Source of the DNA: Cucumis sativus
Lineage: Eukaryota; Streptophyta; Magnoliopsida; Cucurbitales; Cucurbitaceae
Length of the DNA: 64,000 nt
NCBI RefSeq assembly: GCF_000004075.3
Contig: NC_026658.2
Span: 2,108,001 to 2,172,000 of the forward strand
Direction of reading: 5' to 3'
This document shows positions 1 to 35,452 of this stretch, one piece after another. Within the stretch, counting starts at the first letter, position 1; each line of letters begins with the position of its first letter. The notes below the pieces were generated by a model. It did not search any database. It was not told the DNA's origin and saw nothing but the letters and a program-made list of their open reading frames with translations. Position numbers and translations under genes: made by a program.

Positions 1-969
1 TTCTAACCTTCCCATGTTTCCAATCCACTGTGGGAGCTCATCTGAAAAACTGTTGAATCCTATATTGAGGAAGGTTAAGGAGGTTAAGAGCCTCATTGAG
101 TTCGGTAGCGGCCCGGTGAGACGGTTTCCACTGACATCCAATGTAGCTAAGTGGACGCATAATCCCAAGTCTGAAGGTAATGGCCCTGAGAATTGGTTGT
201 TCTGCAACTTGAGCTCTTTTAGATTATGAATAGCTGAAATCCCTTGTGGTAAAACACCAGAGAAATCATTTTTTGAGAGATCTAATGTCCTCAGCCTTGC
301 TAAAGACCAAATCCCAGGAGCAAAATTTAAGCTACCGGAGAATTGATTGGTTGAAAGATTGAGAGTGTTTAAATATAAACACCTTGTGGGCAATGTGTTG
401 GGAACAGGGCCTTGAAGCATATTAGAAGCAAGAGAAAGATAATGAAGAGAAGAACAATTAACAAACATTTCATCAGGAAGTGGCCCAGATAAGAGATTAT
501 CAGAAAAATCAAGAAATCTAATGGAAGACATAGAGATAAGAGAAACAGGAATCCGCCCAGATAAACTATTGCCGCTGAAATTAACTCTGTCGAGACTAGG
601 AGGAAGAACAAGCTGAGGACTAAGATTCCCAGTGAAATTATTCCCAGAGAGAGACAATACCTTGAGATGCTGTAATTTCTCAAGCCCTCTTCCGATTCTC
701 CCAGATAATCCCAACCCATCAATGGAAACCTCAGAAACTCTGCCATTAATGGGGTTGCATTTAATGAACTTCCAAGAACAAGGGGAGTCATCGTCTTCAC
801 TCCAGGAGGAAAGAACGGAAGAAGGGTCTTGAAGGTCGGATTTGAAAACGATTAAGCCGAGGATATCGTCGTTGAGTTGAGGATAAAGTTCATTGAAGGC
901 AATGGCATTTTGAAGAAGAGTGGAGATGGATCCCAAAAGGGAAAGAGCGAAGAAACAGAGGAAAGACAT
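1..969 (-). CDS. LRR receptor-like protein kinase, N-terminal part (gene continues past the left edge)
   Basis: The reading frame is open from the ATG at 969 to the window edge (323 codons) with no intron. Residues 1-24 form a hydrophobic signal peptide. An LRR N-terminal cap follows, with a C-S-W-x-x-x-x-C cysteine pair at residues 64 and 71. From about residue 80 to the edge there are roughly ten plant-type repeats of the LxxLxLxxNxLSGxIP kind. The order and wording (LNDDILGLIVFKSDLQDP, then a SWSEDD segment) closely match the Arabidopsis At3g28040 group, known as probably inactive LRR receptor-like kinases. The kinase domain would lie to the left and is not visible, so activity cannot be judged. 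Expected location is the plasma membrane with the LRRs outside. The other frames over this stretch are shadows. Confidence 0.9.
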   Translation of the reverse strand, partial: MSFLCFFALSLLGSISTLLQNAIAFNELYPQLNDDILGLIVFKSDLQDPSSVLSSWSEDDDSPCSWKFIKCNPINGRVSEVSIDGLGLSGRIGRGLEKLQHLKVLSLSGNNFTGNLSPQLVLPPSLDRVNFSGNSLSGRIPVSLISMSSIRFLDFSDNLLSGPLPDEMFVNCSSLHYLSLASNMLQGPVPNTLPTRCLYLNTLNLSTNQFSGSLNFAPGIWSLARLRTLDLSKNDFSGVLPQGISAIHNLKELKLQNNQFSGPLPSDLGLCVHLATLDVSGNRLTGPLPNSMRLLTSLTFLNIGFNSFSDELPQWIGNMGRLE

Positions 970-3900
970 TGGAGAAGAATGAAGTTCAGTTAATGGGTGT
1001 TTTTTCAGTTGAAGGAGATGGAAAGTTACATGGAAAAGGAGAGAGGAAACAGAAATTGGAGGAGAAAGAATGAAGAATGAAGATTGTAGAATGAAGAAGA
1101 AAGAGAGAAATGATATATGAAATTATGAATGGCCATTTTTGGATCATTGTCGCTTACTTCATCTTCTCTTATGTTTTCTTGCTTTCTCTCTTACTTCGCT
1201 TTCTGTGCCTTTCTATTTTTAAATTCACCTTCTTCTTATATCATTTTCTATTTCTTTATTTATTTTTAAAACATTTCTCAAATTTATCCATCTTTTTCAA
1301 TTTCACCCCGTCTTTTAAAATAAAAAAAATATCAAATTCTATCTATGATAAATACCGATTCCCTTATAACTTCTATCAACCCTACTACTTTATCTACTCT
1401 ACTTAAAAAAAAATGCAAACATGTAACTAGAGAAAATAGGTTTCACTCCCAAGAATAAAAGCAAAATAGTTATTCGAGATAGAAACTAAATATCAATAAC
1501 ATAGTAATCAAATAGTAATGGTAATAATAGACCTTCTAAATGGAAATAATATTAGTAAAGTTATAATTAATATATATTTTTTAAAATTGAGCTAAAAATT
1601 CCAAATTGTTATATGGAAATGTGATTAAATCTTAATTAAATTGTCATGTGACTTTAATCTTTCAAACTATTTAGTCACAAGACACATTTATAATATATAG
1701 GCTAAAGTGAATAGGTAGGCCTCTTGTAGCCTCTCAATGCTTTCATAAGTTTAGTTTTTCCCCCTCACTTTTTCCTATTCTTTTTTTTTATATCTTCATT
1801 TAACAAAACAACAAAATTCACTATTTTCTCTTAGATTTTCTTTTACTCATTCCAAAAACTACCATAAAAGTACGATAGCAATTGTTGTCGTTGTATCTTA
1901 AGCTTTTAAACTTTATTGAACTCTCAAATTTATCAAAATTTTAAACTTAGATTCTCAAACATGTATAATTGTATAAATTTGAAGATTCAATTTGTCATTT
2001 TTATAAGTTTAGAGTTACAATTTTCTTAAAATTAGTTAAGTCATTCTAATACTTTTTATACATAAAAAAGAAATACATTTATAAATATGTTTCTAAAAGA
2101 GTAGAGTCAAAATATTCGAAAATAATGAGAAAAATGGTAATTATAATTGGTGAAAATATTATGAATAATAATTAAGTATATAGCAATATTTAAAAAAAAT
2201 TACAAATATAACAAAATCTATCAGTGTAGATTTCTAGTGATAGACCAATATTTGTAATTTGCTAGACTTTGATAGATTTTACTATATTTGTAAATTTTTG
2301 TAATTATTTTGAATCTATAATTGTTGTATTTATAATTACCTTTAAAAAAATTACAAAATAGTAATATAGACTAGATTTAAAGTTTATTGAAAATAAATAC
2401 ATCGATGTCTTAAATATAGCGATAAATTTTGAACTAAAAAATAATATTGAATTTGTATTTTGATTGAAATCTAAAATATCAATATCGTGTAAATATTTTG
2501 CCAAAAGTTATATCTTTTACAATATTTTCTTTTAAAATAAATAAGATAAAATATCTATAGTCTATATTTAGTTTTTTTTTTAATGTTTTATAGATTCTTT
2601 TATTATATAATGAAAAAATCAATTATTTTATACAAATTCATAATATTAAAAGTTTGAGGGTATAATTGCAATTACCTGTATATAATAAGGATGACTTTTC
2701 CACTTTGTCCTCTTTTTCTAACCTACACCATGAGTAGAACCCTATAGAACTACAAAGTTAGCATTCATCATTCTTTTTTCTTTCTTTCTCGTGTATGTAT
2801 ATGTATATGTGTACGTATATATAACCTAACTTCGTGATTGTAAGTTTTAATTAAAACTTTACACGTTTTTAGGAGTCAGTATCGATTTAAAGCTAGACTA
2901 ATAATTGTAATTTAGTTTCATAGGTATATCAATTTACATCATACATTAGTTGTTTCATTTGGAAAAAACTAATGTAAAATTTATAAATTGTATCAATTAA
3001 ACCCCTAAACTTCAATAAATAAATCAATTTAGATTCTTAACCATATATAATTTTAATTAAAAATAATTTATAGCACTACTCAATCATCCATTTTGTAAAA
3101 TTGACATTTGATAAAGTTTATACACGTTTGAAAGCTAATGCATTCATAATAAATTATCTAAATTTTTTTTCCATAAAAAAAAACTAAATCATCAGTGTTA
3201 AAATTGATACATACGAACAAATATTTTTAAATTTTTATTGAAAATTCAAGGCTATTTTTTTTATATACAAAGATTAAAGTTCAAATATATTTAGTAGAAT
3301 TTAGTCTATACTTTTCTATATTGGATTTATATAAAGAAATTAAGAAAGGGACAACAAATTATTTTATATCCCATAACTCGATACCATTTTCTTGATTTTG
3401 AAATTCATTAATTATAGTTTTTAGGATTCGATTCCAATACCATACTTTATTAACAATTAACAAAAATAAAATTTTAAAAGGACAAACACCATTTATTTTA
3501 TTGTCATATTTACACAAATTTTCAATTTTTAATTATGGCATTAAATTCTGCTGTTTTTTCATCATTTAAAAATGATAAATAATATAATATAAAATTAAAA
3601 TATGCCAATTTGCTTTATCTAAACATTATAACTTAAATTACATTGTACGGCTTATCATTTACCTCAATTTCAATTAAGTTATTAAATCTCATATTATCCT
3701 TTTTTTTCTCCCTTAATTAAATTAAGGATTCGATGCAATTTTTGAGTTTTTGCTTATGAAATTTATGATTCAACATTTTCTTTCAATTATATGAGAGTCT
3801 AATAGACATTATAACTTTTAAGTTTGATCTACAAGTAACTTGGTACACTAAATTTTAAATATTTTATTGATGCGTTAATATTATTAATAAAAAAATATGT

Positions 3901-18469: not shown

Positions 18470-19924
18470 TCACCAAGGTTCTATGTGACCTCCATCTGCA
18501 TCATTACTAATATCTACGTTATTTGTAGTCCAAAAGTCTCCATTCGACCAAATGCTTGGCACACCACTGTTCTCATCTTCAAAATCTAAATCCTCATACT
18601 GAAATAAACTCTCAAAACCATCATCGTAATCGTCGTCATAGTCATTTTCCATCTCATGATCATGATTATTGTTTTCATGATCATTTCCATATTTACTGTC
18701 ATATATTTGAGCCTTCTTCTTCTCCCGTCTCAACCTTTTTGCTTCCTTCAAAAGCGTCATCCATTGATTTTTTATTGCTAAAGTCTCATCCTTCTCCAGA
18801 AGAACACCCTTATCGTCAAATCCTTCCACAAGGAATACAGAGTCTCTCTGACCCTTCAAACTCACATAAAATAACTCCGGATGCCTCACAATCATTCCTC
18901 TCAGTTTATTTGGTAGCCCAAAATCTTTTCTGAAATGTGTCAAGTGGTCTATTAAAGTCCTCTTCTCAACCATCATCCCCAATACCTCTCGCACCACAGC
19001 ACAAGCTCGTTTCTCTGACTCGAGAGACTCCTTGGCCAACTCACTCGCTGGATTTTTGTAAGGGCATACATCTGGCAAATCCCTGAACTTAATTAGAAAT
19101 TCCTGGTGGGTTCTTTTCAAATTCAGCCCCTTTCTTAGTCTCAACAAGTTGAATTTTAATGGCCTATCCACAATTAGCTCACGTGAAGGCACTTGAATGC
19201 AAGGTAAAGGCTTTGCCAACTCGGGGTCCCAGGAGACAAGCTCCAGTGCACGGCCATATGAGGTATCAACAGTCCTAAATTTTTCTGGATAATCATTACA
19301 GAGACGGGACCTAAAATTTGGGGGCAGGCTTAGATCGGGAGCAAGGTGAACCAGCTTTGATAAAAGAATCCTGTGGTGTGAAGAAAGCATAAGTAATTTC
19401 TGGAGCTTTTCAGCCAATTTGTTAGAGATTACCATTTTGAGATCAGAGTCCTGTTTAGCAATAGATGCTGCTGCTGGGGTTAGACGAACACAAAGTTGAG
19501 GGTAAAGCTTTGTTGCATTGAGTGGTGTGGGTGGATAAGGGATTGAAAAAAGTTCAAAAATGGAAGGATAACGATGAATCATTGAAAGGAGAGAACGGGG
19601 TCTGGGAAGGGAAAGATAGCCACGGCATTTGGAAAGAATGTGTAGTGGTATATAATGCTTTGGTTTAGATAGCAGTAGGATTATCAGCTTTTGCACAAAT
19701 CGAGTTTTGTTATGTTTTACAGCATGCCGATCTAACGAACGACTACGAACAATCTTGATAGAGGAACAAGGAGTCAAAGTATAATGAGTTCTGAAATTTT
19801 CTTTTCTTTGACACTTGAAGTCGACTTTGGAGTGCAACCACAATGGACTGCCGCTGAGGAGGTTTGAACTAAGGGATGTTACATGCCAGTCCGTAGGGGT
19901 CAAGAAATGAGAACATAAAGCCAT
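18470..19924 (-). CDS. PORR-domain organellar RNA-binding protein (WTF/RPD1 family)
   Basis: Single-exon frame of 484 residues with ATG at 19924. The N-terminal 50 residues are rich in Ser, Leu, Arg and Lys with few acidic residues, fitting a plastid or mitochondrial transit peptide. The plant organelle RNA recognition (PORR, formerly DUF860) domain runs from about residue 60 to 400. It includes the typical opening (RDLPDVCPYKNP much later, and before it the LHILSKCRGYLSLPRPRS and HRYPSIFELF segments). The family is known to bind group II introns and assist their splicing in organelles. The C-terminal 80 residues are strongly acidic (Asp/Glu runs), as in some members such as WTF1. I cannot tell which paralogue this is. 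The plus-strand frame inside it is a shadow. Confidence 0.9.
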   Translation of the reverse strand: MALCSHFLTPTDWHVTSLSSNLLSGSPLWLHSKVDFKCQRKENFRTHYTLTPCSSIKIVRSRSLDRHAVKHNKTRFVQKLIILLLSKPKHYIPLHILSKCRGYLSLPRPRSLLSMIHRYPSIFELFSIPYPPTPLNATKLYPQLCVRLTPAAASIAKQDSDLKMVISNKLAEKLQKLLMLSSHHRILLSKLVHLAPDLSLPPNFRSRLCNDYPEKFRTVDTSYGRALELVSWDPELAKPLPCIQVPSRELIVDRPLKFNLLRLRKGLNLKRTHQEFLIKFRDLPDVCPYKNPASELAKESLESEKRACAVVREVLGMMVEKRTLIDHLTHFRKDFGLPNKLRGMIVRHPELFYVSLKGQRDSVFLVEGFDDKGVLLEKDETLAIKNQWMTLLKEAKRLRREKKKAQIYDSKYGNDHENNNHDHEMENDYDDDYDDGFESLFQYEDLDFEDENSGVPSIWSNGDFWTTNNVDISNDADGGHIEPW

Positions 19925-21195
19925 TTTTCAGTTTTGTATAAATGGAAGGGCTTTTAGATTACAATAGGTAAACAGATTCATCAAATTAATCTAAAGAAGA
20001 TGACACATATCATTCTTCCAACTCTAACTCAAGAGCACCCACCAGATGGGGGATGCTACTGTCTGGCATCAACAGATTAAACTGCAAGCAACTATCTTGA
20101 GGTTCTTTACCACCTGCAGAACATAAATTGCATTTATGCAGTTAACATTTCAGTACAGTTTATGGTCCCATGGTATTTATACTTTCTTGACTTGTACAAA
20201 GTGAAAATTCTGAATAGAAAAAATAGCAAGGTGCAGCAGAGTCCAAAAAAGCATTTCGATAGTAAAATACTGAAATGTAAATAAACAAAAGCAGAATATT
20301 CACAAGAGAATGCCTAAATTTTTCATCTTCTTGAATTCATAATGAACCGTATGTAAATAAGTGAAAGAAAATTGTTTGGCGTCATGGGAGAGAGTAAACT
20401 AGAAAATAGTAAACCAAGACTTCTTTTTTGTCTACAGATTCTTCTTATGACTGTAAATTTCAGGTTTTTAAAGAGTATGATATGAGGAGGAAATCTCTTC
20501 AGATATCCTTCTCTTAAAAAACTTCTTTTCAGTTACATGGGTAATAAGAGTAAAAAACCATAGAACAAAGTAAAAGCGTCGACCTCAGAAAAGTTCAGCG
20601 ATCAAACAATTACTCCATTTTATCTCCTTTTTTCCCCCTTCTCCCTGGGGTTAGATTAAATCACGATACTAAATTAGCAAATCCCAACCACAGCAATCAA
20701 TATCCTTCACTATAAACGTAAATATAATGCAAACCCACTACCTATTCCACACTGTTCACTTTCTTTCCATAACTATTGGTATTCTAAAATTCACAAAACC
20801 AAATGCCGATTTCCTCAAGCACTACCACCATTATTCTCGATCCAAACATCAAACACCTCTTAGGCAAGAACAGAAATTAATTAAAAGAAGAAAAAAAAGA
20901 GAAACAAACCCACTTTTAGTATCCATCTCCTAACATAAATCTAGCTAAGTAAATGATTTTAGACACAGCTACAAGATGAATTGATTCAACTTAGTGGCAT
21001 GACATGCATATAGTCTCACGAATCCGCACCCTAAACAGAGTTTAAGACGTAAAGTAGCACAGCATGAGATTGTAAATGAGAAGTAATGTAAAAGATAAAC
21101 GAACATCAGCAAACCTGTTGAAAGGTGCGAAGAACTGAAGAGCGGTTTGTAAGCAAGCAGCTAAGACCCGACTCGATAGCAATAGAGGAGGATGA
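19925..21195 (-). promoter_or_regulatory. 5' leader of the PORR gene with a probable leader intron
   Basis: On the minus strand an acceptor (TTATGTTCTGCAG) lies just before 20113 and a donor (TTTCAACAG/GTTTG) after 21115. This suggests a non-coding exon at about 21115-21195, a leader intron at 20114-21114, and a second leader stretch at 19925-20113 leading to the ATG. The sequence has no supported coding region. The structure is inferred from splice-site appearance only. Confidence 0.4.
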
Positions 21196-21708
21196 AGGGT
21201 TACAATTTTTTTATTATTTATTTCAATATTGGATTCAATACGAAGCCTAGAAATTCAAATCATTAGAAAAAAAACAATAGATGGACTTATTGTATTCCAA
21301 AAATTATGAGGACAAAATAGTAAAAACGTGAACTTTCTTCTTCTTTTTTGGTACCAAACGATAATGATTAGGAGAAATATTTATGCATAAACTTTTGGTT
21401 ACTATAGACTTAACTTTTGATAAATGTGAATCAAGGCTATTAGACAAAATTTTCTTCTAAAGATCGTTAGATATTTGAAGAATTTTTTACCCATTCAATC
21501 TAACTCTTCAATTACTCAAAGTTTTCGAACAAAAATGTTTGTTTTAAAATGTGGGATAGGCTATGATTGATGTATTCTACATGTCACTAATGACCAAAAG
21601 TCTTCAAATTTATGTATTGGAGTAGGAATGGTGACAGCCCACCTATTAAACCCAAAGGAAAGTAGGAAACAATCACTCCATTCATCTCTATAACCCAAAA
21701 GCTTGAAC
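21196..21708. promoter_or_regulatory. Divergent promoter region between the PORR gene and NLR1
   Basis: About 500 AT-rich bases separate the inferred 5' end of the minus-strand PORR gene from the start codon of the plus-strand NLR1. Both promoters must lie here, possibly sharing elements. I see no strong TATA box for either gene. Confidence 0.35.
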
Positions 21709-24700
21709 ATGGCGGAATTTCTTTGGACTTTCGCAGCTCAAGAGCTGTTGAAGAAGACAGTGAAGCTCGCAGCAGAACAGATCGGCCTGGCATGGGGTTT
21801 CAACAATGAGCTGTCAAACCTCAGAGACTCTCTACTTATGGTGGAAGCCATTCTTCGTGATGTCGACAGAATTAAGGCAGAGCATCAAGCTGTGAAGCTA
21901 TGGGTAGAGAAGCTTGAAGCTATTATTTTCGAAGTCGATGTTCTACTGGATGAGCTCGCTTACGAAGATCTTCGCCGCAAGGTTGAACCCCAAAAAGAGA
22001 TGATGGTAAGTAATTTCATTTCTTTCTCCAAAACCCCTCTTGTTTTTCGTCTCAAAATGGCCAATAAAATCAAGAACATTGCTAAGATGTTGGAAAGACA
22101 TTATTCTGCTGCTAGTACTGTGGGGCTTGTTGCTATATTATCTAAACAGACTGAACCTGATTTTAGCCAAATTCAGGAGACAGATTCGTTTCTTGATGAG
22201 TATGGAGTTATTGGGAGAGAAAGTGAAGTTTTGGAGATTGTGAATGTATCTGTCGATCTTAGCTATAGGGAGAATTTGTCTGTTTTGCCAATTGTTGGCA
22301 TGGGTGGATTAGGAAAGACAGCTTTGGCTAAGGTAATATTCAATCATGAATTGATAAAGGGGAATTTTGATAGAGCTGTATGGGTGTGTGTTTCGGAACC
22401 TTTTCTTATCAAGAAGATTTTAAGAGCAATTTTGGAAACTCTTAATTCTCATTTTGGTGGCTTAGATAGTAAAGAAGCCTTACTTCAAGAGCTACAAAAG
22501 TTGTTGAATGATAAAAAGTATTTTCTAGTTCTTGATGATGTTTGGAATGAGAATCCTATCCTCTGGAATGAGTTGAAAGGTTGTTTGTTAAAGATTAGCC
22601 AAAGATCTGGAAATGTTGTTGTTGTGACTACTAGGAGTGACAGAGTTGCTGAAATCATGGAGACACATTCTAGATATCATTTGACAAAACTATCCGATGA
22701 CCATTGCTGGTCTTTATTCAAGAAATATGCATTTGGAAATGAATTGCTACGAATTCCTGAATTGGATATTGTTCAGAAAGAGCTCGTTAAAAGATTTGGA
22801 GGCATACCATTGGCTGTAAAAGTGATGGGAGGAATCGTTAAATTTGACGAGAATCACGAGGGATTGCAGAAATCTTTGGAGAATCTAATGAGACTTCAAT
22901 TGCAAGATGAAAACCATGTTGTATCCACAATAAAGTTAACTGTAGATCGCCTACCATTGCCATCGTTAAAACAATGTTTTGCCTACTGTTCAAATTTTCC
23001 AAAAGACTTTAAGTTCAGAAAAGAAGCCCTTATTCAGATGTGGATAGCACAAGGCTTTATTCAACCGTCTTTGGGAAGTGATGAAATGATGGAGGATATT
23101 GGTGAGAAGTACTTCAATGTTTTGTTGTCTCGCTTCTTGTTTCAAGATATTGTCAAGGATAATAGAGGGAGAATTATATTCTGTAAGATGCATGATCTTA
23201 TACATGATGTTGCATGTGCTATTTCAAATTCTCCAGGATTGAAATGGGATCCTTCAGATTTGTTTGATGGAGAACCTTGGAGACGTCAAGCTTGCTTTGC
23301 TAGCCTTGAACTAAAAACGCCAGATTGTAATGAAAATCCTTCTAGAAAGTTGCACATGTTGACATTTGATAGTCATGTGTTTCACAATAAGGTCACAAAC
23401 TTTCTCTACTTGCGGGTTTTAATTACACATTCGTGGTTTATATGTAAATTACCAAATTCAATTGCTAAGCTGAAGCATTTGAGGTATCTTGACATTTCAT
23501 ATTCTACCATAAGGGAGCTACCAGATTCCGCTGTTTTGCTTTATAATTTGCAAACACTGAAGCTTTCAAGATTTTTAAACGGCCTTCCAAAAAATTTGAG
23601 GAAGTTGGTTAGTTTAAGACATTTAGAATTTTTCTCTGATCCTTGTAATCCTAAACAAATGCCTCAACATTTGGGTAAATTGATTCAACTTCAAACGTTG
23701 TCTAGCTTTGTAGTTGGGTTTGATGATGGATGTAAGATAGAAGAACTCAGATCTTTGAGAAATCTTAAAGGTAAGTTAAGCCTTTTATGTCTTGAGCGAG
23801 TGAAAAGTAAAAAGGAAGCCATGGCTGCAAATTTGGTGGAGAAGAGGAATATTTCATATCTGTCTTTTTATTGGGCCTTGAGATGTGAAAGATCAGAGGG
23901 AAGCAACTACAATGATCTGAACGTGTTAGAAGGACTTCAACCACATAAAAATCTTCAAGCTTTGAGAATTCAAAACTTTTTAGGCAAACTTCTGCCCAAT
24001 GTTATTTTTGTCGAAAATTTGGTCGAGATATATCTACACGAATGCGAAATGTGTGAAACTTTACCAACACTTGGGCAGTTATCAAAGCTTGAAGTACTCG
24101 AACTTCGTTGTCTATATAGTGTAAGAAGTATTGGAGAAGAATTTTATGGGAATTACCTTGAGAAGATGATTTTATTCCCAACATTGAAAGCATTTCATAT
24201 CTGTGAAATGATCAATCTAGAGAATTGGGAAGAAATAATGGTTGTATCAAATGGTACAATCTTTTCCAACCTTGAAAGCTTCAACATTGTTTGTTGTCCG
24301 AGATTGACGAGCATTCCAAACCTTTTTGCATCTCAGCATGAGAGTTCATTTCCAAGCTTACAACATTCGGCAAAGCTTCGATCTCTAAAGATTTTGGGAT
24401 GTGAAAGTTTGCAAAAACAACCAAATGGTTTAGAATTCTGCAGCTCCCTTGAAAACATGTGGATAAGCAACTGTTCTAACTTGAACTACCCTCCAAGCTT
24501 GCAGAATATGCAGAATTTAACTTCTTTAAGCATAACCGAGTTTCGAAAGCTGCCAGACGGGTTAGCTCAGGTTTGTAAGTTGAAAAGCTTGAGTGTTCAT
24601 GGTTACTTGCAAGGTTACGATTGGAGTCCTCTTGTACATCTTGGTTCACTCGAAAATCTTGTGTTGGTTGACTTGGATGGAAGTGGTGCAATACAACTTC

Positions 24701-24972
24701 CTCAACAACTTGAGCAACTCACTTCTTTGAGATCACTGCATATTTCGCATTTTAGTGGCATTGAAGCGCTACCAGAATGGTTCGGAAACTTTACATGTTT
24801 GGAAACGTTGAAGCTTTACAATTGTGTAAACTTGAAAGACATGGCGTCGAAGGAAGCTATGTCAAAACTTACAAGATTAACGAGTCTACGAGTTTATGGA
24901 TGTCCACAACTTAAGCTTAATATAGGAGACTTTGAGCGGGTAAACATTTCCCTTGTACCTACCATCAGTTGA
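21709..24972 (+). CDS. CC-NB-LRR disease resistance protein NLR1 (RGA type)
   Basis: Intact single-exon gene of 1087 residues. The start is the ATG at 21709 (MAEFLW), which matches the family; the frame is open a little upstream but has no earlier ATG. An Rx-type coiled coil covers residues 1-130, with an EDVID-like region around LLDELAYEDL. The NB-ARC domain holds the P-loop GMGGLGKTA (197-205), kinase-2 FLVLDDVW (about 272-279), RNBS-B VVVVTTRS, GGIPLA (364-369), RNBS-D CFAYCSNFPKDF and MHD (494-496). About 18-20 irregular LRRs run from residue 570 to the end. Such proteins sense pathogen effectors in the cytoplasm and trigger cell death and defence. The residue after GKT is Ala where most have Thr. 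It converges with NLR2, its closest neighbour in sequence. Which pathogen it recognises cannot be read from the sequence. Confidence 0.95.
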   Translation: MAEFLWTFAAQELLKKTVKLAAEQIGLAWGFNNELSNLRDSLLMVEAILRDVDRIKAEHQAVKLWVEKLEAIIFEVDVLLDELAYEDLRRKVEPQKEMMVSNFISFSKTPLVFRLKMANKIKNIAKMLERHYSAASTVGLVAILSKQTEPDFSQIQETDSFLDEYGVIGRESEVLEIVNVSVDLSYRENLSVLPIVGMGGLGKTALAKVIFNHELIKGNFDRAVWVCVSEPFLIKKILRAILETLNSHFGGLDSKEALLQELQKLLNDKKYFLVLDDVWNENPILWNELKGCLLKISQRSGNVVVVTTRSDRVAEIMETHSRYHLTKLSDDHCWSLFKKYAFGNELLRIPELDIVQKELVKRFGGIPLAVKVMGGIVKFDENHEGLQKSLENLMRLQLQDENHVVSTIKLTVDRLPLPSLKQCFAYCSNFPKDFKFRKEALIQMWIAQGFIQPSLGSDEMMEDIGEKYFNVLLSRFLFQDIVKDNRGRIIFCKMHDLIHDVACAISNSPGLKWDPSDLFDGEPWRRQACFASLELKTPDCNENPSRKLHMLTFDSHVFHNKVTNFLYLRVLITHSWFICKLPNSIAKLKHLRYLDISYSTIRELPDSAVLLYNLQTLKLSRFLNGLPKNLRKLVSLRHLEFFSDPCNPKQMPQHLGKLIQLQTLSSFVVGFDDGCKIEELRSLRNLKGKLSLLCLERVKSKKEAMAANLVEKRNISYLSFYWALRCERSEGSNYNDLNVLEGLQPHKNLQALRIQNFLGKLLPNVIFVENLVEIYLHECEMCETLPTLGQLSKLEVLELRCLYSVRSIGEEFYGNYLEKMILFPTLKAFHICEMINLENWEEIMVVSNGTIFSNLESFNIVCCPRLTSIPNLFASQHESSFPSLQHSAKLRSLKILGCESLQKQPNGLEFCSSLENMWISNCSNLNYPPSLQNMQNLTSLSITEFRKLPDGLAQVCKLKSLSVHGYLQGYDWSPLVHLGSLENLVLVDLDGSGAIQLPQQLEQLTSLRSLHISHFSGIEALPEWFGNFTCLETLKLYNCVNLKDMASKEAMSKLTRLTSLRVYGCPQLKLNIGDFERVNISLVPTIS

Positions 24973-25020
24973 ATTCCAATCTTCACTATAGCTTTTTTTA
25001 GTTAAACTATGGTTACTTGC

Positions 25021-25390
25021 AACAAAACACTGTTTCAATAACGATGATGGTAGTAATCCACGGTTAATTTTATCGTGGATAAAATGAGATTTTATTTTGT
25101 AATAGAATTCTCGTTTCGGTCTAATTTCAGTGTTTATTCTAGTACTTTTATGTTTAATGGTATGTCACCAAATTCCTCGACGAGCTCTTCCCGAACCTTA
25201 TCGACATTGGAATGACTGGCTGGTCGTTTTCAAAAACACATTTATTAAATAAAAACCAAGAAGAATTTTCTTAATTAATACCTATGTCTCCATGATGATT
25301 GCAACTTCATCACTCTTGGTGGTCAGTCACAACTACAAAACTGCACAAATACTTTTATGATCTTTAACAAACAAGCTTTGAATGGAATTT
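25021..25390 (-). pseudogene. Decayed NLR fragment (NB-ARC region)
   Basis: This stretch, read on the same strand as NLR2, aligns by eye with 28135-28580 of NLR2 in the same order. The segment around RLPSSSLKQC comes first on the plus strand (GATGATGGTAG against GATGATGGCAG). Next comes the GLPL region (GGTATGTCACCAAAT against GGTATGCCACCAAAT, then CAAGCTCTTC-like words). The RNBS-B region follows (TTGCAACTTCATCACTC in both). Then comes the stretch before it (CTTTAACAAACAAGC against CTTTAGCAAACAAGC). Small deletions and stops break every frame. Nothing of the coiled coil or LRRs remains. It is a non-functional relic of another NLR that lay in the same orientation as NLR2. Confidence 0.8.
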
Positions 25391-26166
25391 AAGATTCACA
25401 TTGCATTAGTTCTTATTGGAGAGTCTAAATTTATTCATTATATAAGTTTAGAGATTTAGATTTAAGTGATAAAAATTACACGTCGTCTCACATACTATTT
25501 ATTTAAATAAAACATAATCGAGAGTTTAAATTAATACACTTGTGAAAGTTTAAAATTTAAACCAATACAATTATTAGTTTATGATTTAAATTTAAATGGT
25601 CCTTCAAGTTCAAGATTTAACTCGATATAGTTATTGAGTTATGTTTTAAATTGATAAAGTATAAATTAATATTTTTTTTTGGCTAAATTATAAAAAAATA
25701 CCTATAAATTTTATATTTGTGTTAAAAATGCTTCTAAAGTTCTAAAAGTTTCAAAAAATACCCTTAAAATTCTAAAATGAATTAAAAAATACTGTTGCAG
25801 TTGGTTTTGAATGGTAACAATTAAAATTTTATTTGAAAAATAACCATAAAGTTTCAAATTCTTTGAACTTAAAAAGGAAAAAAAAGGTTAAAAAATGACA
25901 TTTGCTATGTTAGGAAGTTGTAAAGTCTCAAATTAAAAAAATAATGATTCACAATTACAAATACATCTAATAAAAAAGTAGTGGCAGTTACAAATTAAAA
26001 AGCTTAATTGTTGATCCAATTCAACTCAATAATGAGATCTAAATACACAATACAAGATTAATAAAATGAGAAGAAGAAAAAAAAGATAATAAACAAGTTC
26101 GTTGGAAGTAGTTGTCCTCACTTATGATCTTAAAGGTGAAACTTTAGTCGTTACAAACCTGAAGTG
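25391..26166. other. AT-rich spacer between the convergent NLR genes
   Basis: Apart from a copy of the dispersed AT-rich repeat phrase (25540-25660) I see nothing here. The last part is the 3' flank of NLR2. Confidence 0.5.
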
Positions 26167-29100
26167 CTAGCAGCTAATATCATGTACATGCGCAATTTTC
26201 GCCCGCTCATAGCTACCTTCGTCGAGTTTAAGTTGGAAACATTCATAAGTTTCCAAACGACTTAATTTGGTGAGATTAGACATGGCTTCTATTGAAGGGA
26301 AACTTTTCAAATTTTTGCAATAACGTAGATTTAACGTCTCTAAAGATGTAAGGTTTCCCAACCATTCTGGCAAAGAATCAATGTCACTAAAACGTTCGAT
26401 ATCCAATGATCTTAAAGCGGTGAGATACTCAAGTTGTCGAGGAAGTTGCAGAAGTAAATTACTTACTCCTGTGTTAACCAACCGAAGAATTTCAATCGAT
26501 GAATTGAGATACATGAATGGACTCCAATCCAAACCTTGCAATTCCCCATAAACATCCAATCTTTTCAAGTTATGAATGGTGGCAAGCCCCTCCGGCAACT
26601 TCTCGAAAGCTTGGATGCTCAAGGACGACAAGTTTGGCATACTTTTCAAATTTGGAAGAGAATTATTGTTAACGTTAGGACAATTGCATATGACCATATT
26701 TTCAATGGAGCTGCAGAGATTTAACCAATGTGGTAACTTTGTCAATTTTTCACAATAAAAAATCTTGAGAGATTGAAGCTTTGGAGGAACTTGAAAAAGG
26801 TTAGGAATATTCATCAATTTCGAACACCAAACAATGCTCAAGCTTTCAAGATGAGGAAAGGTCGCACCATAGTTTGATGAACTCCCTATTTCTTGCCAAA
26901 GCTCTAAACTTTTCATTTGGGAAATATGAAGGGTCTTGAGTTTAGGGAATAACAATGAAGACCACTCATTGTGGTAACTATTATTGTTCCCATAAAATTC
27001 ATCCCCAATACTTTTTACACTATCTAAGCAACGAATATGAAGTAATTCAAGCTTAGATAAGTGCCCCAACATTGGCAAAGTTTCACATCTTTTGCAATCA
27101 TATAGAATTACCTCCACCAAATTTTCAACAAAGAGGCCATTAGGCAGAACACCTCCAAAGTTTTCAATTTTCAAGGCTTGAAGGTTTTTGTGTGGTCGAA
27201 GCCCTTCCAACACATTCAAATCATTGTTACTACAATCTTCTCTTTCACTTAACAAACTCCATTGAAAATATAGATCAGAAATGTTTTCCTTCATTGCCAA
27301 ATTTGCAGCCATAGCCTCGGTTTTACTTTTGACATGCTCAAGATGGAAAAGGCTTAGTTCACCTTTAAGGTTATTCAGTGGTCCAAGTTCCTCTATCTTA
27401 CATCCTTTGTCGAAACCGACTACAAAACTCGAAAGCGTTTGAAGTTGAAGCAATCGACTCAGATGTTGAGGCATTTGTTTAGTTTGAGTTGAGAGAGAGA
27501 ATTCTAAATGCCTTAAATTGACCAATTTTCTCAATTTTGTAGGAAGATGCATAATTTTACTTCCAAGCCTCAATGTCTGCAGATTATAGAGTGAAACAAT
27601 AGAGTCTGGAAGCGTTCTTATTAGAGAGTGTGAAATGTCGAGGTACCTTAAATGCTTCAACTTAGCAATTGAATCTGGCAGTTGATGTATAAACCATGAA
27701 TGAATAATTAAAACGCACAAGTAGGTGAAGTTGCTGATCTCATTGTGAAATACATGACTATCAAAGGTTGGCAGGTGAAACCGTTCAACAACATTTTCAC
27801 TGCAATGAAGTGTTCTAATTTCATGACCGATCGAAAGAGCTTTGTCTCCATTAGATTTGCCACTCAGTCTCAATTTTTGAGCATTTGAAATAGCACATGC
27901 AACATCATGTACAACATCGTGCATCTTGCAATACAGAATTCTTTCTCTGTCATCTTTGACGACATCTTGAAACAAAGAGCGAGACAACAAAGTATTAAAG
28001 TAGTTTGCTCCAATATCCTCCATCGTTACATTGCTCCCACTAGGTAGATGAATAAACCCTTGTGCTATCCACATTTGAACAAGTGGTTCTCTTATAAATA
28101 AGAAGCCTCGTGGAAAGTTTGAACAATAGGCAAAACATTGCTTCAATGAAGATGATGGCAGCCTGTCCACACTTAATTTTATGGTAGATAAAATACTATT
28201 TTCATATTGTAATGGACTTATGATTAGATTTTCCAAAGTTGATCGCAATCCTTGACAACATTTATTCTTGTCTAATTTCACCATTCCTCCAAACACTTTC
28301 ACAACCAAAGGTATGCCACCAAATCTTTTAACAAGCTCTTCTCTGATTACATGATCAACTCTTGGAGTCACTGGCAAATCACTTCCAAATGCACATTTTT
28401 CAAATAAAGTCCAACAATAATCATTTGATAACTTTCTCAAACGATGTCTTTGATGATTTGTCTCCACAATATTTGCAACTTCATCACTCCTAGTAGTCAC
28501 AACAATAACACTTCCAAATTTTTTATTGGCCTTTAGCAAACAAGCCCTTAACTCATTCCACAGATCAGGATTTTCATTCCAGACATCGTCAAGCACCAGA
28601 AAATACTTTTTGTTCCTCAACAATTTTTGAAGCTCTTGAAGTAAAGCTTCCTTATTGTCTAATCCACCAAAATTAGCATTAAGAGTTTCCAAAATTGCTC
28701 TTAAAATCTTGTTGATAACAAAAGGTTCAGACACACACACCCATATCATTCTATCGAAATTCTCCCTTATCATTTCATGATGAAATATCGCCTTCGCCAA
28801 AGATGTTTTTCCTAGTCCACCTATACCAACAATTGGTAAAACAGATAGAGCTGCTTCTTGTTTGCTAAGTTCAAGTAGTTTATTCACTATCTCTAATACT
28901 TCAGCTTCCCTCCCTATAACTCCAATCTCATCAAGAAACGAGTCTGTCTCTAGAATTTGGCTAGGTTCGGACTCGACTTCTTTGGATGTTATAGCAACAA
29001 GCCCCATGATACTCGCTGCACAATAATGCTCGTCTAACCTTTTAGCAATAGCTTTAATTTTATTGGCCATTTTGAGGCGAAAAACAAGGGGATTTTTGGA

Positions 29101-29409
29101 GGATGAAACGAAACTACGTACCGGCCTGGCGTCCACCTTGCGTCGAAGATCTTCGTAAGAGAGCTCGTCGAGTAAAACGTCGGCTTCAAAAACGATATGT
29201 TCAAGCTTCTCCACCCATAGCCTCAAGGCTTGATGTTCTGCCTTGATTCTGTTAACATCACGTAGGATGGCTTCTACCATTAGTAAAGAGTCCCTTAGTT
29301 TTGAAAGATCCTTCTTAAACCCCCATGACATGCCAATTTGCTCTGCCACAAGCTTCACTGTCTTCTTTAACACTTCATCTACAGCAAAGCTCCATAGGAA
29401 ATCCGCCAT
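26167..29409 (-). CDS. CC-NB-LRR disease resistance protein NLR2 (RGA type)
   Basis: Intact single-exon gene of 1080 residues starting MADFLWSFAV. Coiled coil 1-130 with DVLLDELSYEDLRR. NB-ARC motifs: P-loop GIGGLGKTS (195-203), kinase-2 LVLDDVW (271-277), RNBS-B VIVVTTRS, GGIPLV (364-369), CFAYCSNFPRGF, MHD (496-498). LRRs fill the rest, from about residue 570. It follows NLR1 almost residue for residue up to the MHD motif, including the spacing of all motifs, and the LRR parts also correspond. The two are recent paralogues in inverted orientation. The residue after GKT is Ser instead of Thr, which should still allow nucleotide binding. Its tail faces NLR1 and its head faces NLR3. Confidence 0.95.
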   Translation of the reverse strand: MADFLWSFAVDEVLKKTVKLVAEQIGMSWGFKKDLSKLRDSLLMVEAILRDVNRIKAEHQALRLWVEKLEHIVFEADVLLDELSYEDLRRKVDARPVRSFVSSSKNPLVFRLKMANKIKAIAKRLDEHYCAASIMGLVAITSKEVESEPSQILETDSFLDEIGVIGREAEVLEIVNKLLELSKQEAALSVLPIVGIGGLGKTSLAKAIFHHEMIRENFDRMIWVCVSEPFVINKILRAILETLNANFGGLDNKEALLQELQKLLRNKKYFLVLDDVWNENPDLWNELRACLLKANKKFGSVIVVTTRSDEVANIVETNHQRHRLRKLSNDYCWTLFEKCAFGSDLPVTPRVDHVIREELVKRFGGIPLVVKVFGGMVKLDKNKCCQGLRSTLENLIISPLQYENSILSTIKLSVDRLPSSSLKQCFAYCSNFPRGFLFIREPLVQMWIAQGFIHLPSGSNVTMEDIGANYFNTLLSRSLFQDVVKDDRERILYCKMHDVVHDVACAISNAQKLRLSGKSNGDKALSIGHEIRTLHCSENVVERFHLPTFDSHVFHNEISNFTYLCVLIIHSWFIHQLPDSIAKLKHLRYLDISHSLIRTLPDSIVSLYNLQTLRLGSKIMHLPTKLRKLVNLRHLEFSLSTQTKQMPQHLSRLLQLQTLSSFVVGFDKGCKIEELGPLNNLKGELSLFHLEHVKSKTEAMAANLAMKENISDLYFQWSLLSEREDCSNNDLNVLEGLRPHKNLQALKIENFGGVLPNGLFVENLVEVILYDCKRCETLPMLGHLSKLELLHIRCLDSVKSIGDEFYGNNNSYHNEWSSLLFPKLKTLHISQMKSLELWQEIGSSSNYGATFPHLESLSIVWCSKLMNIPNLFQVPPKLQSLKIFYCEKLTKLPHWLNLCSSIENMVICNCPNVNNNSLPNLKSMPNLSSLSIQAFEKLPEGLATIHNLKRLDVYGELQGLDWSPFMYLNSSIEILRLVNTGVSNLLLQLPRQLEYLTALRSLDIERFSDIDSLPEWLGNLTSLETLNLRYCKNLKSFPSIEAMSNLTKLSRLETYECFQLKLDEGSYERAKIAHVHDISC

Positions 29410-32314
29410 ATTTTCTTGTCTTGGTTTCTCAAGTCTGCAATTAAAATATATTTTGGATTTTTGTACCGACGTCCCCTCTTCGAGGCGAACATGAAAGAGA
29501 TTGATTGACTAAAAGACCCAATCTCAAACCTCATAATGCATGGTTTTGGCTCCACTTTTGCTTACATTATCATGAGTCAAAGTCACAAAACAGACTCTGA
29601 ATTTTTTCTTTTTCTCCTGCCTTTTCTTCTTCTTAATTTGCTTTCGTCAATTTGTGCAATTCATTCTCAAATCTTTCTTACTCCATTTGTCACCGACCAT
29701 CAGGTGCAATGGAGCAACAAAGCAAACAGCAAAGAGTGAAAGCAAAAGAAAAAGGTCAATTCTCACATAATTATTTTTAACATTCTACTTGCACCATAAG
29801 AAAAATTGCCATAACAATCATGTGAAGCATACGTTGATCTTCAATGCTCGATTCTTGCATGCTTATCTTGATACTCATTTCTTAGTTTTTGATTGCTCAA
29901 CTTTAATTCTATCAATATGATAGAGTGGGAATCAAGAACGAGTAGCAAAAGCGAGCAAGTGTCAAGTCATCACGAGCTATAACAAGATTAAGTTGCAAGA
30001 ATCAACTATTAAGAGTTGTCATACATACTTGTTATTGGTAATTTCACTTATAATAGCAAATGCAAAAAAAAAAAAATCTAAAATATGGATCCTTTTTAAA
30101 TTTTAATGGATGATCCATCAACATTCCAAATTTATCGAACATTTGTGTCCACAAAAACATTGGGCCATCTAAAAAAAATCTTATATACACGACGTCCTTG
30201 ATATTCTAAAAAAGAAAGTTTGAAGACTTCAAATATATGTGTAAATCTTATATACTCTAAAAGATATTTTCAAGGCCTATATACACATATACACATGTAC
30301 ACTGTAGTCAAGTAGGCTTGGTTGGATGTTATTGTGACGGTACGAAATCAATTAGAGAACTTTGAGATGGGTTTTTGATGTTGTATTGAAGTGAGTTCAA
30401 TCAAAGCTTGGAAAAAGCTTTCTTACGAAGGTAAGGGGGCGGTTATACACTCAATTGAGGGGAGTATAAGTACATTATATTGATGGGATCCATACAAAGC
30501 TTGAAGAAGAGAGTAATTGTAGGAGTGAGGAGGGAGAAGTTAAAGTTGAGACGAAAGAATAAGGTATACAGATAAATACTCCATTGTAATTTAACTCTTT
30601 ATAAGTTGAATTTTTTTTTTTTCTATTAGGGCATACAATCCTCCAAATAGTAAGTAATATTGCACTAAACGAGTTATGAATATTTTCGTCTCACAATCTC
30701 TTTGCTCTTCTTTGATATTATGTTATTATATTTGTCGGCAATTTTGTTACGCAACCATACCCTATTTCTTAGTCATCTCTAAAACATCTCTTTTTTTTTT
30801 TCTCCATATATTGACTTTTCTATGTAATTTCTTTTCAAAGTGCATTTAAGAACTAAGTCCCGTAATTTAATTTGCCACTAAAACCACTTACTTGAACAAT
30901 TGATTCATTCGTGAGAGAAAATTAAAATTTAATCGAAGGAAGAACTTTTTTTTTAAAAAAAAAGAAAAAATGTTAATATATTTCAAAAATAGAGTAGGTA
31001 AGATTTAGAGAACGTGTGTTAGGTCGGTCAAAGAAATTATGTTTTGATCTCGATTAAATTTATTTTTTTAGTACAATAAAGATCAAAAGATGTGAACTAC
31101 AATTTTTTTGGTCACAGCTCATCGACACATTTATATTATCCATAATATGATACTTAACTATTTTACTATTCAAAGCAATCAAATTTACATAGGAATCTTT
31201 TTGTAAGAATGATTTGTTCACGAGATCTTTTACGATTAGTAAACTCGTCCCTTCGTAAAGGATTCTAACATTTTTCTTACATCATAGTGCACTACCACAT
31301 TTTATAACGCGATAACCATTTTTATTACGGTTTTAGATGAGAAAAATGAAAGAATGTGCTAGAGATGATCGTCAAGTTAAGGCCATGTATACATTATAAA
31401 AAGCAATAGTGTGTTCTAAGGATAAGTATAAGTTTGTGAGGGAGAAGTTAGTTAGTTACATGGGAAATTAACAAAAATAGGATAATTTTTAAGGGTTTAA
31501 AGAGTTTTAGGATGAATTTTAAAAAATATGACATCTAAGACAAATTAACTAGGAAAAGTCTATATTACCCTCTAGTTATAAAAAAACCTAAAAAGCAATT
31601 TATTGAATTCCTTCTCCTTCTTCCTCTATTTTCTCACTTCCAAAAAGAATATTTCATTTTTCTCTCATCTTTCCTTGTGCGTATTAAAACCTTTGATTTT
31701 TTTTTTCTTTCTTTTCCATTTTTCATTCACAAAACTACAAAAACAATGGTAGTTTCAGTGATTTCATTGTGGAACATTCACAAAGATGTGTACGAGATAG
31801 GTGTGAGATGTGTACGAGATAGGTGTGAGATGTGTACGAGATAGGCTAAGAGGGATTAAAGAAAAGTTCAATTAGTTTACAAGCCTAGAGGATTAATAGT
31901 GGAGAAGAAATGGATGGAAGTGGAGAAGAAATGAACGGAAGAGAAGAAACGTGGGCACCAAAAATTGAAGGAAGGAAAAAGAAAAGAGAAAGGAGGAAGT
32001 TAAATGATAGTATTTTCGTCATTTCACCTCTAATTTATCCTAAATATCAACTTTTTTACAATCAATACTGAAAATCTTATCTAGCTCATTTTTGGCTCTG
32101 TCAATTCCGGGAGTTACATCCCAACAAGAAAAGAAATGGTTACATCAAATGTGGACTTAAGACTAAATACCCACTTGTACAATCAATGCCGTGAATGGCA
32201 AGAACAAGAATTCAAAGAAGAGAAAAGTGAGCACTAGAAAAGAACCAACAACCATGGTGGAAAATTTGGATCAGATTTCCCACTAATTTAGAACTTCTTC
32301 TCTTTGAGAAAAGT
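29410..32314. promoter_or_regulatory. Head-to-head spacer and promoters of NLR2 and NLR3
   Basis: 2.9 kb lie between the start codons of divergent NLR2 and NLR3. The stretch at 30330-30620 is less AT-rich and contains TCAATTGAGGGGAG and a later T run, resembling the edge of an old Copia-type retroelement, but I cannot define ends. A three-copy short tandem repeat lies at 31785-31845. No coding region is supported. A frame at 29536-29739 has only low-complexity character. Confidence 0.4.
31785..31845. repeat. Tandem repeat, 22-base unit, about 2.8 copies
   Basis: The unit starting GATGTGTACGAGATAGG occurs at 31785, 31807 and 31829, the third copy being 17 bases long. The copies are identical where they overlap, so the duplication is young. 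It lies about 470 bases before the NLR3 start codon, in its promoter region. Confidence 0.9.
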
Positions 32315-35300
32315 ATGGCTGAATTCCTTTGGACATTTGCTGTGGAAGAGACGTTGAAGAGAACGGTGAACGTTGCAGCTCAGAAAATTTCTCTCGTTTG
32401 GGGTTTGGAAGATGAACTTTCAAATTTAAGCAAATGGCTACTCGATGCTGGAGCCCTTTTGCGCGATATCGATAGGGAAATACTTCGCAAGGAATCGGTG
32501 AAGAGATGGGCAGATGGGCTTGAAGATATCGTTAGTGAAGCTGAGGATCTTTTGGACGAGCTTGCTTATGAAGATCTTCGAAGAAAAGTGGAAACAAGTT
32601 CAAGGGTGTGTAATAATTTCAAATTTTCTTCTGTTCTTAACCCTCTTGTTCGTCATGATATGGCCTGTAAAATGAAGAAAATTACTAAAATGTTAAAACA
32701 ACATTATCGCAACTCTGCTCCTTTAGGGCTTGTTGGGAAGGAATCCATGGAGAAAGAAGATGGAGGTAATAATCTTAGGCAGATTAGGGAAACAACTTCG
32801 ATTCTGAATTTTGATGTTGTGGGAAGGGAAACTGAAGTTTTAGACATATTGAGATTGGTGATTGATTCTAGTAGTAATGAGTATGAGCTTCCTTTGTTGA
32901 TTGTACCGATTGTAGGGATGGGTGGAGTTGGAAAAACAACTTTGGCGAAATTGGTTTTTCGTCATGAGTTGATCAAGAAACATTTTCATGAAACAATATG
33001 GATATGTGTGTCGGAACACTTCAACATCGACGAGATTTTGGTAGCAATTTTGGAAAGTTTGACGGATAAAGTTCCAACCAAAAGGGAAGCTGTACTTCGC
33101 AGGCTTCAAAAAGAGTTGCTAGACAAAAGATGTTTCCTTGTTTTGGATGATGTTTGGAATGAAAGTTCTAAGTTGTGGGAAGAGTTAGAAGACTGTTTAA
33201 AAGAGATAGTTGGGAAATTTGGAATCACCATTATAGTAACTACAAGGTTGGATGAAGTTGCTAATATTATGGGAACAGTTTCGGGTTATCGTTTGGAAAA
33301 GTTACCTGAAGACCATTGTTGGTCCTTATTTAAGAGAAGTGCAAATGCAAATGGAGTAAAAATGACTCCAAAGTTGGAGGCTATTCGAATAAAGTTGCTT
33401 CAAAAAATTGATGGCATACCGCTTGTTGCAAAAGTTTTGGGAGGAGCCGTGGAATTTGAAGGAGATCTTGATAGGTGGGAGACCACACTTGAAAGCATAG
33501 TAAGAGAAATTCCAATGAAACAAAAAAGTTATGTGTTGTCCATATTACAATTAAGTGTGGACCGTCTACCCTTTGTGGAAAAACAATGTTTTGCCTATTG
33601 TTCAATTTTTCCTAAAGATTGTGAAGTTGTTAAAGAAAATTTGATTAGAATGTGGATAGCACAAGGGTTTATTCAACCAACAGAAGGAGAGAACACGATG
33701 GAGGATCTGGGAGAAGGGCACTTCAACTTCCTCTTATCTCGCTCCTTATTTCAAGATGTCGTCAAGGATAAGTATGGGAGAATTACTCACTTTAAGATGC
33801 ATGATCTAATACATGATGTTGCCCTTGCCATTTTGTCAACTCGTCAAAAGTCGGTATTAGATCCTACTCATTGGAATGGAAAAACGTCAAGAAAGTTGCG
33901 CACCTTACTTTACAATAACCAAGAGATCCACCATAAAGTTGCAGACTGTGTTTTCTTGCGTGTTTTAGAAGTGAATTCCTTACATATGATGAATAACTTA
34001 CCAGACTTCATTGCTAAGTTGAAACACTTGAGATACCTTGACATTTCATCATGTTCTATGTGGGTTATGCCCCACTCTGTTACTACGCTTTTCAATTTAC
34101 AGACACTGAAGCTTGGAAGTATAGAAAATCTTCCAATGAATTTGAGAAATTTGGTTAGACTACGTCACTTAGAATTCCACGTCTATTACAACACAAGGAA
34201 AATGCCTTCTCATATGGGTGAGTTGATTCATCTTCAAATATTGTCTTGGTTTGTTGCAGGGTTTGAGGAAGGCTGTAAAATTGAAGAACTCGGAAATTTG
34301 AAAAATTTGAAAGGTCAATTGCAACTTTCAAATCTTGAGCAAGTGAGGAGTAAAGAAGAAGCTCTAGCTGCAAAATTGGTCAATAAGAAAAACTTACGTG
34401 AGCTAACTTTTGAATGGAGTATAGATATTTTACGAGAATGTAGCAGCTACAATGACTTTGAAGTGTTGGAAGGACTTCAACCACCCAAAAATCTCAGTTC
34501 TTTGAAAATTACCAACTTTGGAGGGAAATTTTTGCCTGCTGCTACTTTTGTTGAAAATTTGGTGTTCCTATGTTTGTATGGTTGTACAAAATGTGAAAGG
34601 CTTCCAATGCTTGGACAATTAGCCAACTTGCAAGAACTTAGTATTTGTTTCATGGATAGTGTGAGAAGTATAGGGAGTGAGTTTTATGGCATTGACTCCA
34701 ACCGAAGGGGTTATTTTCCCAAGTTGAAGAAATTTGACTTCTGTTGGATGTGCAACCTAGAGCAATGGGAATTAGAAGTGGCAAATCATGAGTCAAATCA
34801 TTTTGGTTCTCTTCAAACTCTAAAGTTGGATAGATGTGGCAAATTGACAAAACTGCCAAATGGGTTAGAATGTTGCAAATCTGTTCATGAGGTGATAATA
34901 TCAAATTGTCCTAACCTTACCTTAAATGTAGAGGAAATGCATAACCTGTCTGTTTTATTAATAGATGGGTTGAAGTTTTTGCCAAAAGGATTAGCTCTCC
35001 ACCCTAACTTGAAGACCATAATGATTAAAGGATGCATAGAGGATTATGATTATAGCCCTTTCCTAAACTTGCCTTCTCTTACAAAACTTTACTTGAACGA
35101 TGGCCTTGGAAATGCCACCCAGCTTCCTAAACAACTTCAGCATCTCACTGCCTTAAAGATTTTAGCCATTGAAAATTTTTATGGCATTGAAGTTCTTCCT
35201 GAATGGTTGAGAAAGCTTACATGTTTGGAGACTTTGGATCTTGTTCGTTGCAAAAACTTGAAACGGTTGCCTTCAAGAGGAGCCATGCGATGCCTCACCA

Positions 35301-35452
35301 AATTAAAGGATTTCAAAGTTATAGCATGTCCATTGTTGCTACTTGGGGGCCAAGCTGACCAAGAAGGTGCCAAGTATCTTCATATTCCAGCCTATCTTTG
35401 TCATGTGTATCAATCTAGAGGAAGCCCTCTTTCCAAAACATCTTCCATCTAA
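32315..35452 (+). CDS. CC-NB-LRR disease resistance protein NLR3 (RGA type)
   Basis: Intact single-exon gene of 1045 residues starting MAEFLWTFAV. Coiled coil 1-135 with AEDLLDELAYEDLRR. NB-ARC motifs: P-loop GMGGVGKTT (201-209), kinase-2 FLVLDDVW (274-281), RNBS-B IIVTTR, DGIPLV (367-371), CFAYCSIFPKDC, MHD (495-497). LRRs from about 560 to 1015. It is clearly of the same family as NLR1 and NLR2 but more distant, with different wording in the coiled coil and LRRs and a shorter LRR region. Its last 20 or so residues, after the point where the other two stop, have no counterpart. They may come from use of a new stop codon downstream of an old one. All nucleotide-binding motifs are of the usual form. 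Confidence 0.95.
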   Translation: MAEFLWTFAVEETLKRTVNVAAQKISLVWGLEDELSNLSKWLLDAGALLRDIDREILRKESVKRWADGLEDIVSEAEDLLDELAYEDLRRKVETSSRVCNNFKFSSVLNPLVRHDMACKMKKITKMLKQHYRNSAPLGLVGKESMEKEDGGNNLRQIRETTSILNFDVVGRETEVLDILRLVIDSSSNEYELPLLIVPIVGMGGVGKTTLAKLVFRHELIKKHFHETIWICVSEHFNIDEILVAILESLTDKVPTKREAVLRRLQKELLDKRCFLVLDDVWNESSKLWEELEDCLKEIVGKFGITIIVTTRLDEVANIMGTVSGYRLEKLPEDHCWSLFKRSANANGVKMTPKLEAIRIKLLQKIDGIPLVAKVLGGAVEFEGDLDRWETTLESIVREIPMKQKSYVLSILQLSVDRLPFVEKQCFAYCSIFPKDCEVVKENLIRMWIAQGFIQPTEGENTMEDLGEGHFNFLLSRSLFQDVVKDKYGRITHFKMHDLIHDVALAILSTRQKSVLDPTHWNGKTSRKLRTLLYNNQEIHHKVADCVFLRVLEVNSLHMMNNLPDFIAKLKHLRYLDISSCSMWVMPHSVTTLFNLQTLKLGSIENLPMNLRNLVRLRHLEFHVYYNTRKMPSHMGELIHLQILSWFVAGFEEGCKIEELGNLKNLKGQLQLSNLEQVRSKEEALAAKLVNKKNLRELTFEWSIDILRECSSYNDFEVLEGLQPPKNLSSLKITNFGGKFLPAATFVENLVFLCLYGCTKCERLPMLGQLANLQELSICFMDSVRSIGSEFYGIDSNRRGYFPKLKKFDFCWMCNLEQWELEVANHESNHFGSLQTLKLDRCGKLTKLPNGLECCKSVHEVIISNCPNLTLNVEEMHNLSVLLIDGLKFLPKGLALHPNLKTIMIKGCIEDYDYSPFLNLPSLTKLYLNDGLGNATQLPKQLQHLTALKILAIENFYGIEVLPEWLRKLTCLETLDLVRCKNLKRLPSRGAMRCLTKLKDFKVIACPLLLLGGQADQEGAKYLHIPAYLCHVYQSRGSPLSKTSSI

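Follow-up and report, generated by a model that had tools for sequence, protein, structure and literature searches.

What is the short NLR-like stretch that lies between NLR1 and NLR2, an inverted gene pair of Cucumis sativus: the remainder of a lost resistance gene, a small piece copied in from elsewhere, or an element that acts on its neighbours today? The earlier note had described it as a fourth, decayed NLR at 25021..25390. The window is the whole stretch of 64,000 nucleotides that was analysed (C4:2108001-2172000), and the genome searched comprised 226.6 Mb on 88 contigs. The features concerned, numbered from the first base of the window, are as follows.

21694..24972, plus strand: NLR1, open CNL frame with Rx_N, NB-ARC, WH and LRR, 1087 aa from the first MA (open frames, domain models)
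22573..22981, plus strand, opposite to the relic: NLR1 counterpart of the relic (blastn pieces on the minus strand)
24973..25022, no strand: gap of 50 bases from the NLR1 stop to the relic, for which no further NLR homology was reported (blastn, tblastn)
25023..25383, minus strand: NLR relic, psi-NB-ARC (alignment and shuffles, tblastn, multiple alignment, lesion count)
about 25384..26166, no strand: A+T-rich spacer from the relic to the 3' end of NLR2 (genome DNA search, tblastn, inverted-repeat search)
26167..29508, minus strand: NLR2, open CNL frame with Rx_N, NB-ARC, WH and LRR, 1080 aa from the first MA (open frames, domain models)
28131..28560, minus strand: NLR2 counterpart of the relic (pairwise alignment to 28545, remainder by multiple alignment)
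32231..35452, plus strand: NLR3, open CNL frame with Rx_N, NB-ARC, WH and LRR, in the same cluster and more distant (open frames, domain models)
about 65396-68577, past the window end: NLR4 (L012), full-length-like, in several frame pieces (tblastn)
72785-76021, past the window end: NLR5, full-length and open (tblastn)

Besides the relic, the cluster has at least five NLR copies; two lie past the window end, one of them frame-broken, and the designation as a fourth NLR therefore has to be given up. Cucumber chromosome 4 carries a five-gene CNL cluster (PMC9099878), and five RGHs within 43.4 kb were reported on scaffold00919 of Gy14 chromosome 4, compared to four in its melon counterpart (PMC3626583). 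With likewise five NLR copies, three inside the window and two beyond, the cluster described here is probably the published one; a relic between its first two genes is not mentioned in those parts of the text of both papers that were covered. Judged from length and place, NLR1 and NLR2 would correspond to Csa4G015840 (1087 aa) and Csa4G015850 (1080 aa), both single-exon genes (PMC9099878), and going by order and length one might guess that NLR4 is Csa4G016430, annotated with 840 aa and 3 exons. The covered part of PMC3599390 contains nothing specific to the chromosome 4 cluster, and the locus-tag prefix CsaV3_4G003 together with NBS-LRR gave no literature match.

The several frames of NLR4, which is nearest to NLR5 in the tree, may reflect a younger pseudogene, introns or assembly errors. 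Elsewhere in the window, a gene encoding a PORR (plant organelle RNA recognition) domain is situated at 18470-19927 on the minus strand (E 4e-93). At the left edge, weak matches to NLR LRRs (about -83..381, minus strand, E 9e-6 to 0.018) fall within an open frame at -581..1122, and, on inspection by eye, a further open frame at -2786..-1215 resembles LRR sequence; a gene of the LRR receptor type may extend across this edge.

Judged from its sequence, the relic (25023 to about 25383) derives from the second half of the NB-ARC of a CC-NB-LRR (CNL) gene and has since decayed; in terms of motif names it runs from RNBS-B to the start of RNBS-D. A local alignment of 25023-25376 with 28131-28545 shows strand and order to be those of NLR2, a minus-strand gene, in agreement with what had been claimed. 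The alignment score of 98 compares with a maximum of 35 and a mean of 21.9 in 500 dinucleotide shuffles of the query, and under a second scoring the score of 98 stands against a shuffle maximum of 33. Using 24973-25500 as a query, blastn matched NLR2 in two pieces (E 3e-14 and 1e-12) and NLR1, on the opposite strand, likewise in two (E 1e-13 and 2e-9). The best NLR1 piece reaches 68.0 bits compared to 69.8 for NLR2, the second NLR1 piece 54.5 bits; that NLR1 matches the relic almost as well as NLR2 does was passed over in the earlier note. At the protein level, tblastn with NLR2 detects the relic as two pieces that differ in frame (E 7e-8), and with NLR1 as a single piece (E 2e-5). Similarity lies far above chance, and a DNA search of the whole genome with the relic found three places, namely the relic itself, NLR2 and NLR1. 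In case of the boundaries, the proposed span is correct within about 10 bases: the NLR1 match extends the homology to 25382, past which the alignment is forced. The counterpart in NLR2, previously drawn to 28580, stops short of this position between 28545 and 28560.

The description of the stretch as broken by deletions and stops is borne out: the relic carries eight indels, and its aligned frame (117 gap-free codons) is interrupted by two stops. The six deletions comprise 8, 11, 4, 41, 1, and 1 bases relative to NLR2 and 5, 11, 1, 35, 1, and 1 bases relative to NLR1, the two insertions 1 and 4 bases; stops occur in all three raw frames. The relic makes no protein. It amounts to about one ninth of an NLR; because tblastn reported no more than this NB-ARC piece between NLR1 and NLR2, it is called a fragment here and not a whole pseudogene.

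For the kinship of the relic, 26 loci were picked from the stronger of 89 genomic NB-ARC matches, of which five yielded no segment, leaving 21 NLR segments. Scored against the relic, NLR2 (231) and NLR1 (223) are followed by a third best segment with only 139. The multiple alignment spans 25021 to 25390, with a few columns at each end outside clear homology, and the tree comprises 13 rows, the relic and 12 of the 21 segments; L004, with the same score as L003, and eight remote segments were omitted. L003 and L004 (C5:7.94 Mb and 8.70 Mb) are CNL loci that have identical scores and are separated by about 0.75 Mb, and they reflect either a duplication of recent date or one introduced by the assembly.

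In the tree, the relic, NLR1, and NLR2 are separated from all other rows with 99% bootstrap. Within this trio, the relic is identical to NLR1 at 252 and to NLR2 at 253 of 365 sites, and NLR1 and NLR2 agree at 271 of 365. Of the sites that separate NLR1 from NLR2, the relic agrees with NLR1 at 36, with NLR2 at 37, and with neither at 21. The topology joining the relic to NLR2 is best by just 0.27 log units, and the AU test keeps all three topologies (p-AU 0.61, 0.53, and 0.18). A 3-base insertion in NLR2 is absent from the relic, NLR1, and the outgroups shown, in an alignment judged by eye. On these comparisons, third lineage of the NLR1/NLR2 subclade is the most fitting label for the relic, which is not demonstrably a copy of NLR2. 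Of the proposal that the cluster lost a gene in tandem with NLR2, the shared orientation stands, but a special kinship to NLR2 is not borne out (253 versus 252 of 365 sites, likelihood difference 0.27); because the relic is about equally close to both genes, it is orientation that supports the term tandem copy of NLR2. The use of the relic as a marker for the order of events behind the inverted pair is likewise lost, because all three branching orders stay acceptable and no topology is rejected.

Whether the relic had a coding life of its own was approached via the substitutions in the 117 codons, a small data set with 20 ambiguous sites. The changes counted on the branch leading to the relic (majority node for the trio) comprise 26 synonymous and 42 nonsynonymous ones, compared to 48-53 nonsynonymous changes expected from neutral simulation (P 0.0015, 0.009, and 0.057 at kappa 1, 2, and 4), and the synonymous to nonsynonymous ratios on the NLR1 and NLR2 branches resemble that of the relic branch. 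Pairwise dN/dS values over 115 codons are 0.30 for relic and NLR1, 0.23 for relic and NLR2, and 0.28 for NLR1 and NLR2. Measured against the outgroup L028, dN/dS reaches 0.64 in the relic, compared to 0.31 in NLR1 and 0.45 in NLR2, and the value of the relic speaks for relaxed constraint. Two codon-position tests of the relic-specific changes showed no significance (P 0.72 and 0.083). Taken from substitutions of this kind, a coding period followed by decay receives modest, mixed support.

These observations bear on the origin of the relic, which we consider likely to be what is still readable of a third CNL gene of the NLR1/NLR2 subclade, left as debris of birth-and-death evolution. A local duplication inside the cluster would have given rise to about three sister genes at nearly one time, the third of which would have been under coding constraint for a while and would have lost its function later; deletions and the insertion of dispersed repeats on the 5' side may then have removed the CC, P-loop, and LRR parts. 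A short NLR piece that was copied or carried in alone, as filler of a double-strand break or by mobile-element capture, with never a whole gene at this site, is the less probable origin and an unlikely one, although several features suit it. The relic comprises just 360 bases and breaks off sharply near 25023 and 25383, its dN/dS against L028 is relaxed, and dispersed repeat-like sequence adjoins it: pieces of the spacer resemble dispersed genomic sequences, with at least 45 matches listed, the spacer itself included (40 of 195 candidates scored). A search by tblastn with NLR1-3 (E 0.05; the window plus 10 kb to the left and 20 kb to the right, matches inside NLR1-3 left out) reported only the NB-ARC piece between NLR1 and NLR2 and no remnants of CC, P-loop, or LRR, and across the same span it yielded, besides the relic, only NLR4, NLR5, and the weak LRR matches at the left edge, hence no further NLR relics. 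Because other parts of the gene were not found nearby, it is by inference that a whole-gene ancestor is placed exactly at this site.

A 14-base exact direct repeat is present at 24599-24612 within NLR1 and at 25009-25022, its second copy ending at the edge of the relic; with an E of 0.34 by itself it is possibly due to chance or a trace of repair, the latter being in line with a copied piece. By contrast, the ratio of changes on the relic branch hints at a coding past of the relic itself, a close source copy was not found in the genome, and inverted repeats of at least 12 bases bracketing the relic are absent from 24900-26200. Transposon capture was discarded for lack of such repeats. No Rfam family was found at the gathering score in the whole window.

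The location of the relic invites yet another reading. It starts 50 bases past the stop codon of NLR1, and a 3' UTR of ordinary length on NLR1 would take in at least part of it. By geometry, a read-through RNA from NLR1 would carry the relic antisense to the NB-ARC, as had been pointed out. As a working part of the NLR1 3' UTR, the relic would fold back on the NB-ARC coding region and damp translation or feed small-RNA dicing, a reading to which we assign very little probability. When the fold of 21709-25450 is predicted, 260 of the 361 bases of the relic are paired with the NB-ARC of NLR1, compared to 14-42 in six shuffles, the MFE being -1051 versus -949 to -966; the predicted duplex of the relic with NLR1 reaches -268.5 versus -119 +/- 8 in 100 shuffles, and pairing with NLR2 is predicted to be even better. 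However, such pairing with the NB-ARC follows from homology alone. The longest exact run shared with the relic is 15 bases for NLR1 and 17 for NLR2. Between the relic and all 21 segments, no 21-mers occur at up to one mismatch, and up to two mismatches admit five to NLR1 and five to NLR2. The relic thus lacks the near-perfect 21-nt complementarity by which a source of siRNAs or phasiRNAs is recognised. Relic-specific transitions that keep pairs are not significantly enriched (26 versus 15, P 0.12), and selection for pairing was dismissed on this account. The P-loop, a common miRNA target (PMC9201817), lies outside the relic. Among the matches listed for NLR, antisense, pseudogene, and small RNA, titles and abstract openings described no such arrangement.

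It is tempting to speculate that the relic might slow NLR1 by folding back on it, and NLR2 by pairing in trans, such that the loss of a gene would have created a regulator of its neighbours, but this model is highly improbable. The antisense layout 50 bases beyond a stop codon makes an inexpensive RNA test feasible. The relic probably has no present role.

Relics of NLRs are common in the genome. Stops were found in 16 of the 89 genomic NB-ARC matches, which are matches and not genes, since several may share one gene; the relic itself is absent from these 89. Similar to the relic, the NLR pseudogenes of cacao are, in the part of PMC12405883 covered, broken NLR-like stretches beside the parental cluster and fit birth-and-death evolution, but the cucumber relic is shorter and more decayed. 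The tblastn cut-off of 1e-20 given there is far stricter than the best E of 7e-8 obtained for the relic, with the reservation that database sizes differ.

As relics of this kind are common and expected, the general lesson is a small one. For the cluster itself, the relic indicates a former third member of the NLR1/NLR2 subclade, and its site offers a place for comparing gene loss across cucurbit genomes.
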